From Geitlerinema sp. PCC 9228 (GTDB lineage: Bacteria > Cyanobacteriota > Cyanobacteriia > Cyanobacteriales > PCC-9228), in the NCBI RefSeq assembly GCF_001870905.1, contig NZ_LNDC01000052.1, positions 14,027 to 54,088 on the forward strand: a stretch of DNA of 40,062 bases, read 5' to 3'. A program made the position numbers and the translations under genes. The stretch's first letter is position 1. Each line of letters begins with the position of its first letter. The notes beneath the pieces are model-generated. The model made no database searches and was not told the origin of the DNA. It saw only the letters and a list, made by a program, of their open reading frames with translations. This document shows positions 28,143 to 30,551 of the stretch, piece by piece.

Positions 28143-30551
28143 TTATTCGATCGCATCTTCTGGCATCGCATTGGTGTTGGATGGCAGTTCCGGTTCTTGC
28201 GAACTATCGACAATAACGCCATCGAAGAAATTCGCCAGACGTTCCGCCGCGATCGCAAGTTCCTCCGTTCCCTCATAACTATTATCAGTAGCCGGATTCG
28301 ACGGCACCACCGCCTCCGATGGTGAATCTTGCTGTTGCTGGTTCCCCGCCTCTGACTTGCTAGTCTGCTGGGGTGTCGGGGAACTTTTTGCTGTTGGTGG
28401 GGCTGCCTGGTGACCATTATGGCTACGACTGGTAGCTGGTTGGCTGGGTTGTTGGGCAGCCGCAGCTCCTCCACGACCGGCAGCAGCACTGGAGGAAGAA
28501 CCAGAACCGGTGGCTTTTTTGCCCGTTTCCCGACTTTGCGGAGAAATCACCTCCAGACTAATGCGGATTTTCTCCCCCTGAATTTGGGAAAAAGCACTTT
28601 CCAACTCCGATAGCTTCCGCTGAGCCACTTTAAGCAACCCTTTGGAATTTACCCCCACCACCGCTGTTCTTTCCTGCGGCGAAAACGATAGCAAGCGGCA
28701 TTGCTGGCGTAGCAACTCCCGGGTTGCTCGCTTGCTCAAGCCATCGAGAATTTGCTGCCACAAACCGGGCAAATCAATACTTTCCGTCTCCTTTGTTTCT
28801 GCTGCTGTCTCTTGGGTCTCCTCCTTGGCCATTGGTTCCGTAGCTGGCGTTGCTGGCGGTGGAGGTTCCGATTGTACAGCTGGTGGTTCTACCGGCGGTG
28901 ACGGCTGCGGCTTGGGGGTGGCACTGCCATTGGCGGGTTCCTTCGCTGCTTGTTTCGCCCCGTTGCGATGTTCCTGTTGGGCAGGGGCTGGCGTTGCCTT
29001 GGCTGGTGGTGAAGACGCGGCTACTGGTGGGGAAGCTGGTTCGCGGCTGGCGGCTGGTAGCAGCTGCAGCAGGGTCACTTCCAACCACAAACGCGGCTGG
29101 GTGGTATTTTTTAACTGCGTTTCTGCTTTTTGCAGGTGGCTTTGGCAGTTCAGCAACGTCGCCACATCTACGTTTTGAGCCAACTGGCACAATTGTTCCC
29201 AAGTGCTGTCGGTATAGGGCACCAAATCCCGGCTTTCGGGAGATGTTTTGGCTACCAGCAAATCCCGATAGAAAGCGGTGAGGTTCTGTAAAATTGTCAG
29301 CGGTTCCCGCCCCAAATCCATCAAACGGCGGCAGCATTCCAGAATGGTTTGGGTTTGGGTGGAGAGAATGGCTTGCATCAAAGCCAGCAAATCCCGCTCC
29401 GGTACTGCCCCCACCAAATCCCAGACTCGGTCGGTGTCGATTTCCCCAGCCAGGAGGCTGAGCTGGTCCAGCAAGCTTTCCGCATCCCGCAATCCCCCTT
29501 GGGAGACTTGGGCAACCAAACGAATGGCTTCGTCGGCGATTTGGATTTGTTCTTTTTCGGCAATGGTACGCAGGTGTTCTACCATGCTTTCTAGGGGAAT
29601 ACGGCGGAAGTCAAACCGGTGGCAGCGGGAAACAATGGTGGGCAGTACCCGTTCGGGGTTGGTGGTTGCCAGCACAAATACCACGTGAGCTGGGGGTTCT
29701 TCGAGGGTTTTTAACAGGGCGTTGAAAGCTGGCACGCTAAGCATGTGGCAGTTGTGTACCAGCAAGCCATTGGCGACAAAGTTATGGTTGTCTGCTACTT
29801 CTAGGTCGTAGACGGGGGTGGGAGCTTGTTTTTGTAGCGATCGCACGGTGGCAAAGTCCGTGGAAATGGGGCCGCGATCGCTGGTTTTCGGTGCCAAAAT
29901 TTGCATGCCGGCTTGGATATCTTTAGCAGGTAGCCAGCCGTTTCTGGTTCCAATCAAATGTTTCCCCGTACAACGCAGGGAAAACGCATCGGTTTCCACA
30001 AGAAATGTTTCTTTAATTCCCCGTTCCAACCAACGCAAAACTTTTTTGTATTCCCAATCTTGGGTACGCTCGTTGTAACTAAGAACTTCCCGATTTTTTA
30101 AATTAGAATCTTCAATGGGTACGTCACCGTGGCGGGTGCGGATGCGGACATCCCCCGGCAGGCATTCGTCGATGATATAAACCTTGTATCGACACTGCAC
30201 TGGTGTCAGCTGAGCTCTTTCGATCAGTTCGCGGACGTTGTCAACCCCGGTGTTGCTGGCGGCATCCACTTCCACAATATCCAACGCCGAACCACTGGCA
30301 ATGGCCCGACAAACCTCACAAGTGCCGCAGGGTTGATGCGTCGGCTGCGAACTTTTTTGACAGTTGAGGGATTTGGCTAAAATTCTGGCACTGGAGGTTT
30401 TCCCCGTTCCCCGCGGTCCGGAAAACAAATACGCCGGTGCGATCCGGCTTTGCCGGATGGCATTGGTCAAGGTCTGAGCGATCGCTTCCTGACCGACCAA
30501 ATCCCCAAAACTTTGGGGTCGGTATTTGTGGTGGAGGGGTTCGTAAGCCAT
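28143..30551 (-). CDS. dnaX: DNA polymerase III gamma/tau subunit with mini-intein
   Basis: The 802-residue precursor starts at ATG 30551 (MAYEPLHHKYRPQSF); the frame extends further upstream but the family begins here. Walker A is GPRGTGKTS at residues 45-53. A four-Cys zinc module follows (Cys 64, 75, 78, 81). Walker B is split after IIDE-129 by an intein at 130-267 and resumes with CHMLS. The SRC sensor-1 region (PTIVSRCHRF) follows. The spliced protein would be 664 residues with a Pro/Ala-rich linker (about residues 490-580) and tau-like C-terminus. I see no ribosome site; a dispersed 21-base repeat lies 15 bases upstream of the start. No frameshift signal for a short gamma form was identified. 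Confidence 0.95.
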   Translation of the reverse strand: MAYEPLHHKYRPQSFGDLVGQEAIAQTLTNAIRQSRIAPAYLFSGPRGTGKTSSARILAKSLNCQKSSQPTHQPCGTCEVCRAIASGSALDIVEVDAASNTGVDNVRELIERAQLTPVQCRYKVYIIDECLPGDVRIRTRHGDVPIEDSNLKNREVLSYNERTQDWEYKKVLRWLERGIKETFLVETDAFSLRCTGKHLIGTRNGWLPAKDIQAGMQILAPKTSDRGPISTDFATVRSLQKQAPTPVYDLEVADNHNFVANGLLVHNCHMLSVPAFNALLKTLEEPPAHVVFVLATTNPERVLPTIVSRCHRFDFRRIPLESMVEHLRTIAEKEQIQIADEAIRLVAQVSQGGLRDAESLLDQLSLLAGEIDTDRVWDLVGAVPERDLLALMQAILSTQTQTILECCRRLMDLGREPLTILQNLTAFYRDLLVAKTSPESRDLVPYTDSTWEQLCQLAQNVDVATLLNCQSHLQKAETQLKNTTQPRLWLEVTLLQLLPAASREPASPPVAASSPPAKATPAPAQQEHRNGAKQAAKEPANGSATPKPQPSPPVEPPAVQSEPPPPATPATEPMAKEETQETAAETKETESIDLPGLWQQILDGLSKRATRELLRQQCRLLSFSPQERTAVVGVNSKGLLKVAQRKLSELESAFSQIQGEKIRISLEVISPQSRETGKKATGSGSSSSAAAGRGGAAAAQQPSQPATSRSHNGHQAAPPTAKSSPTPQQTSKSEAGNQQQQDSPSEAVVPSNPATDNSYEGTEELAIAAERLANFFDGVIVDSSQEPELPSNTNAMPEDAIE
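29751..30164 (-). mobile_element. DnaX mini-intein (138 residues, no endonuclease)
   Basis: The insertion begins with Cys (CLPGDVRIRT, block A) and ends NHNFVANGLLVHN (blocks F and G: penultimate His, terminal Asn). The next extein residue is Cys. TGKHLIGTRNGW is block B with its TxxH-like His. There is no LAGLIDADG or HNH region between B and F. All splicing residues appear intact: Cys1, block-B His, His137, Asn138 and Cys+1. It sits between Glu and Cys of the DECH Walker B motif, so unspliced DnaX could not bind Mg-ATP properly. Confidence 0.95.

Follow-up and report, generated by a model that had tools for sequence, protein, structure and literature searches.

The dnaX gene of Geitlerinema sp. 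PCC 9228 is interrupted, within the Walker B motif of its product, by an intein of 138 residues. The locus raises the question of what such an element is doing in an essential protein: whether it serves as a switch on replication or is a reduced form of a mobile element and, if the latter, how an endonuclease came to be lost from it. The window referred to below is the whole stretch of DNA that was analysed, 40,062 nt in length. The relevant features, with the evidence for each, are as follows.

28143 to 30551, minus strand: dnaX (DNA polymerase III gamma/tau), 802 codons with the intein counted, and the stop codon; NCBIfam PRK14948.1 at 2.4e-245 and dnaX_nterm at 8.7e-128
30165 to 30551, minus strand: N-extein, last residues ...RYKVYIIDE, the Walker B Asp and Glu being its final two codons
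30162 to 30164, minus strand: codon for intein Cys1 (first nucleophile), invariant in 24 aligned DnaX mini-inteins
29751 to 30164, minus strand: DnaX mini-intein, 138 aa; translation, Pfam and NCBIfam profiles, match to 7cfv and alignment
29958 to 29969, minus strand: block B, T66-G-K-H69 (TxxH); T66 and H69 invariant in the 24
29935 to 29937, minus strand: site of the putative nested-nuclease ATG of relatives, CTG here; intein nt 227 in zero-based numbering, over an invariant Trp codon
29840 to 29890, minus strand: linker, about residues 92–108, joining the halves of the splicing domain; the nuclease gene of relatives sits here
29751 to 29813, minus strand: blocks F and G, VYDLEVADNHNFVANGLLVHN, including H137 and N138; translation and alignment
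29748 to 29750, minus strand: Cys+1, the first residue of the C-extein; dnaX translation
28143 to 29750, minus strand: C-extein, CHMLSVPAFNALLKTLEEPP..., up to the stop codon; dnaX translation

The start of dnaX is taken to be the ATG at 30549–30551. Translation of 29751–30164 gives 138 residues (CLPGDV...GLLVHN) without a stop, so the coordinates and length in the first-pass annotation were exact, as was its placing of the interruption between DE and CH of the 802-residue frame (...RYKVYIIDE^CHMLSVPAFN...). The Pfam profile Intein_splicing (PF14890) was matched at 45.5 bits (cut-off 35.8; 9e-12) and the NCBIfam profile intein_Cterm (TIGR01443) at 37.9 bits (cut-off 15.6); intein_Nterm (TIGR01445), at 22.9 bits, fell slightly below its cut-off of 24.5. 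Cys1, T66, H69, the block F pair H127-N128, H137 and N138 are all present and are invariant in the 24 aligned DnaX mini-inteins. With Cys+1 also in place, the description of the splicing residues (Cys1, TxxH, H137-N138 and Cys+1) as intact was borne out. The intein had further been described as lacking an endonuclease, and no endonuclease model was found among the Pfam and NCBIfam matches listed for it. Lying after the Walker B Glu and before a Cys, shorter than 150 residues and free of an endonuclease, it is confirmed as a natural mini-intein inserted at the DnaX Walker B motif, a member of the known DnaX mini-intein kind.

The nearest solved structure is that of the Spl DnaX mini-intein from Spirulina platensis (7cfv; phmmer E value of 4.5e-36 over residues 2–138), the next best match being at 1e-8. 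The two are alike in host protein, in size (136–137 versus 138 aa) and in the lack of an endonuclease, but the window copy differs in its linker and at three conserved positions; its residues P3, K68 and A91 are unusual, the alignment being at least 90% conserved at each of these positions. In a paper of 2011 (PMC3103413), the Spl DnaX intein, at 136 residues, is described as the smallest then identified, its splicing being then experimentally unproven. Two of the inteins collected here (G517 and G591, 136 aa each) appear by eye to be of the Spl DnaX type, and the window intein is 49% identical to that of G591. The Geitlerinema genome (G000) contains further inteins, whose host proteins were assigned by eye, on contigs C48, C106 and C100/C129 (L235–L237, L242): a GyrB-like intein of 169 aa, two DnaB-like inteins of 340 and 168 aa, and a DnaE-like intein that is seemingly split, with its N-part on C100 and a C-terminal match on C129.

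To place the window copy within its family, two overlapping samples of cyanobacterial genomes (386 and 388) were searched with it. Ninety genomes matched at E values of 1e-20 or lower; the next matches began near 1e-14. The inteins of 89 of the 90 were assembled (G488 was left out) and 86 were sized, using a pattern that requires DnaX flanks and Cys at +1. Both features are therefore true of the 86 by selection, and all 86 lie in DnaX because the pattern demands its flanks. Outside the sized set are G635, at a contig end; G459, which was missed by the C-junction pattern though its intein is intact; and G404 (L151), whose N- and C-halves lie in different frames with a tandem-repeat insert between them, the locus being broken, misassembled or split. 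In addition, 13 viral contigs (L082–L094) encode stretches matching the window intein, the match in six being confined to the last 20–36 residues of the intein.

The 86 sized inteins comprise 33 of 127–148 aa, 23 of 157–273 aa, two of 336 and 339 aa, 26 of 429–430 aa and two of 522 aa. Thirteen are shorter than 138 aa, among them five of 129 aa and one listed at 127 aa (G417), which has masked letters and is not among the 32 mini-inteins of the start-codon and footprint counts given below. The size of the window copy had been called close to the lower limit for natural inteins. That was roughly right, but with 13 of 86 shorter the size is an ordinary one, and the idea of a record-small intein was rejected.

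The longer relatives are distinguished by a second open reading frame. The in-frame insert of one 430-residue intein gave no Pfam match up to an E value of 10, and the ORFs in the +2 frame of two such inteins matched LAGLIDADG_2 (PF03161) at 9.3e-23 and 3.2e-19. This frame is open for about 330–335 codons in the full-length intein, and the nuclease query matched all 28 inteins of at least 429 aa. The predicted product resembles I-SceI in profile (2e-7), and its model (pLDDT 75, pTM 0.60) resembles I-WcaI and I-SceI in fold (Foldseek E values of 5e-10 and about 8e-9 to 1e-8; target TM 0.67 and 0.65). D138 and D237/D238, the acidic residues of its two LAGLIDADG motifs, are invariant in 18 of 18 aligned copies, and we take them to be catalytic, as in the LAGLIDADG family. 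The product differs from I-SceI and I-WcaI in having two C-x-CGC motifs in its N-terminal region and in being encoded inside an intein, in another frame; no such nuclease is present in the window intein. The two inteins of 522 aa (L116 in G426, L117 in G481) have nuclease frames of 440–448 codons; upstream of the main nuclease match, further matches to the C-x-CGC region occur. As for the intein frame of a full-length copy, residues 95–389 were modelled by AlphaFold at a pLDDT of about 22, compared with about 85 for the splicing halves; the alignment contained 10 sequences, and this shallow depth may partly explain the low value for the filler. An in-frame endonuclease domain in the 430-residue relatives was thus rejected, one insert having no Pfam match and one model no structure there.

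The 25 inteins of exactly 1290 nt allow the frames to be compared base by base, with the proviso that these copies are related and counts over them not independent. Frame 0 is free of stops in all 25, and the +2 frame over nt 234–1190 in 23; frame +1 contains 11–26 stops in each. Mean entropies at frame-0 positions 1, 2 and 3 were.42, 1.02 and.60 in the insert, versus.58,.37 and 1.19 in the splicing domain, i.e. variation peaks at third positions of nuclease codons all along the insert and at third positions of intein codons in the splicing domain. Over the insert, pairwise amino-acid identity averaged.68 for the nuclease frame, compared with.46 for frame 0 and.47 for frame +1. When nuclease codons were shuffled synonymously, a mean of 5.6 stops arose in frame 0, and none in only 4 of 5000 shuffles, compared with the observed zero in all 25. 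Selection therefore acts on the nuclease frame, whereas in the intein frame only stops are avoided; since its identity is about that of the unused frame, it otherwise shows no more sequence constraint than such a frame. The LAGLIDADG_2 matches, the open frame, the codon pattern and the shuffles all stand against a chance ORF, and that explanation was discarded. Two full-length copies (L041 in G544, L049 in G593) carry one stop in the nuclease frame while the intein frame is open, and perhaps show the nested gene beginning to decay, ahead of its deletion.

The nested gene is presumably translated and its product active. An ATG in the nuclease frame lies over the invariant Trp codon (nt 227) in all 25 copies of 1290 nt. 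It is found in 26 of 28 full-length and 15 of 21 intermediate inteins, and also in 24 of 32 mini-inteins, for which reason it is a weak sign on its own. In the sequence contexts viewed, no conserved and well spaced ribosome-binding site stood out by eye before it. As the nuclease frame is –1 relative to dnaX, ribosomal frameshifting by –1 was also considered, and no conserved slippery site was seen by eye in the same contexts.

It is of interest to compare these inteins with systems already described. The Ssp DnaX intein of Synechocystis sp. PCC 6803 is, like the window copy, a natural DnaX intein, but a full-length one; its length of 430 aa and its insertion site are assumed here. As described in PMC3443213 and PMC3620165, engineered smaller versions of it splice in high yield in E. 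coli. The latter (2013) counts it among inteins with putative endonuclease domain sequences, whereas in the 28 full-length relatives of this study the predicted nuclease lies in another frame. A comparable arrangement is the out-of-frame HNH gene of phage methylases, which (PMC11855218) is likewise hidden in a second frame of a host gene kept free of stops; it differs in that the nuclease is HNH rather than LAGLIDADG, there is no splicing domain and the host is a phage. The main text of that paper mentions neither DnaX nor Synechocystis, and the main text of two reviews (PMC1654191 and PMC7765530) neither DnaX nor reading frame. Searches of an open-access library turned up no description of an endonuclease overlapping the DnaX inteins; the founding paper of Liu and Hu (1997; FEBS Lett 408:311) or that of Gorbalenya (1998) may already describe one.

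Comparison of these sequences shows that mini-inteins arose repeatedly by in-frame deletion of the nested nuclease gene. Inteins of nearly identical DnaX proteins differ greatly in size: two extein pairs that are 99.5% identical carry inteins of 430 versus 142 aa and of 430 versus 148 aa, and a pair 98.9% identical carries 339 versus 144 aa. On the DnaX extein tree, which like the intein tree is a quick search with SH-aLRT support only and has long branches for G490 and the window's genome, mini, remnant, full-length and absent inteins are intermixed. The starred branches alone require no fewer than 11 changes for the mini class and 14 for the full-length class, counts that on such a tree do not distinguish gain from loss. 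The 19 deletions compared, three of which had a kept-base identity below 0.8 and were not relied on, are all multiples of three bases because an open intein frame was required. A footprint of the nested gene, the CECGCG-type motif of the nuclease N-terminus in the nuclease frame, was present in 26 of 28 full-length, 7 of 22 intermediate and 16 of 32 mini-inteins, in the last sometimes fused to the nuclease C-terminus. The first-pass annotation had proposed looking between blocks B and F for a scar left by the endonuclease. Such a scar does exist in half of these mini-inteins, in another reading frame, but the window copy has none.

In two lineages of 138-residue mini-inteins, the deletion junction falls inside a TTTACAAATTTGG-type repeat; this repeat encodes a YKFG segment close to each end of the nuclease, the two segments being similar. 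An exact repeat of at least 9 nt, at the spacing that would give 138 aa, was found in 5 of 25 full-length copies (one of 13 nt, four of 9 nt); of the remaining 20, 19 had a longest repeat of 5–6 nt, which does not exceed that of shuffles. As a general route, repeat-mediated loss is thus only partly supported. The window itself contains 67 copies of the octamer GCGATCGC, known as HIP1, versus 0.46 expected. The linker, which houses the nuclease gene in relatives, contains two of them (29837–29844 and 29874–29881), at a distance of 37 nt; that these palindromes caused a loss of the nuclease here is a lead only.

Other accounts of the window intein must be weighed against ordinary splicing and descent from such a family. 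The unusual residues at positions 3, 68 and 91 might suggest an inactive intein, with DnaX supplied by another, intein-free copy. However, the catalytic residues are all in place, the two splice junctions and the flanking DnaX frame are intact, and a search of its own genome with the spliced DnaX core recovered, at E values of 1e-40 or lower, just the two halves of this one gene. Inactivity is considered extremely improbable. Splicing is, by homology to other DnaX inteins, most likely and, as the core matches only this gene, presumably required for growth. Since the insertion lies right behind the Walker B Glu, unspliced DnaX should, by inference from anatomy, be inactive, and this is one attraction of the proposal, made in the first-pass annotation, that the redox state of, or a disulfide at, Cys1 and Cys+1 holds back splicing and thereby gates DnaX and replication. 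Redox-sensitive inteins are known in other proteins, and Cys1, C65 and Cys+1 are all present here. Against this, the sequence offers no evidence for a switch, and the patchy distribution of the intein speaks against an essential role: DnaX proteins with an intein have close relatives with none (98.6% identical for a 129-residue intein, 95.7% for one of 138 aa and 97.6% for one of 430 aa), and the DnaX tree shows the size classes and intein-free proteins interspersed. Under a pattern permitting Cys, Ser or Thr, the +1 residue was Cys in 82 of 82 inteins. Cys is also common at empty sites (22 of 30, these being the kept loci from a search that found DnaX in 60 of 60 genomes), and its presence at +1 is hence no sign of selection for a switch. 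Such a patchy presence, between DnaX proteins 96–99% identical, resembles that of a mobile element more than that of a conserved switch, and the regulatory proposal is judged very unlikely. The distribution fits the cutting of empty sites, and homing, by the putative nested nuclease.

A more substantial alternative is that the window copy is an ancient mini-intein that never contained a nuclease, the overlapping gene having invaded other lineages later. Its linker has no recognisable nuclease remnant, the nuclease-frame footprint sought in it was absent, and the nuclease query gave no match in its own genome at E values of 1e-6 or lower; lacking a footprint and with CTG at nt 227, it may indeed never have carried the gene. 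In the intein tree its terminal branch, at 1.18, is longer than any other; the copy is at most 60% identical to any other and has no near relative in the samples, in which one genome of its family was included. The footprint is, moreover, missing from 16 of 32 mini-inteins, those of the Arthrospira type included. Footprints, on the other hand, decay in the absence of selection; the window copy has its site and intein family in common with nuclease-bearing relatives; and full-length and mini forms are near-identical in several lineages, which indicates that loss of the nuclease is frequent. A lineage that was always without the gene is regarded as quite possible, if somewhat doubtful; the window copy may instead descend from a nuclease-bearing ancestor and have lost the gene long ago. 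The first-pass annotation had counted a larger, active endonuclease at the same point in relatives as evidence against its account. A larger form, with a predicted nuclease, does occur, but it bears on the origin of mini-inteins and does not refute what was said of the window copy.

Taken together, the data make it highly probable that the window sequence is a HINT-fold mini-intein undergoing ordinary cis-splicing, in a family with a LAGLIDADG gene nested in the +2 frame and with mini forms produced by in-frame deletion. Splicing through Cys1, the terminal Asn and Cys+1 would take place soon after translation of DnaX and restore the Walker B sequence DE-CHML. In the full-length form (429–430 aa, twice 522 aa), the endonuclease would be a separate, I-SceI-like gene nested in the +2 frame; a ribosome on dnaX would make a structureless filler of some 295 residues, removed with the intein, and in-frame deletion of the nested gene would leave a mini-intein. 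On balance we also lean towards a more specific view, in which these elements are dual-coding parasites: a splicing domain and a nuclease in two frames, with the roughly 295 filler residues spliced out, an internal start over conserved Gly-Trp codons, and minis such as the window copy as products of in-frame collapse, in two lineages via a TTTACAAATTTGG-type repeat, with exactly 138 residues left.

On its own, the window copy is one more DnaX mini-intein. Its relatives, however, document the loss of an endonuclease at a single site in a well-sampled natural series (430, 339, 336, 273 ... 129 aa), and the expectation that it would be useful for the study of such loss was sound. The family shows an intein whose predicted endonuclease is an overlapping gene and not an inserted domain. 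If this is true, a different reading of the central part of the widely used Ssp DnaX intein may be called for; hundreds of filler residues would be tolerated in an essential protein because they are spliced out; and the family would provide a concrete case of a mobile element whose two frames are held open for different reasons.
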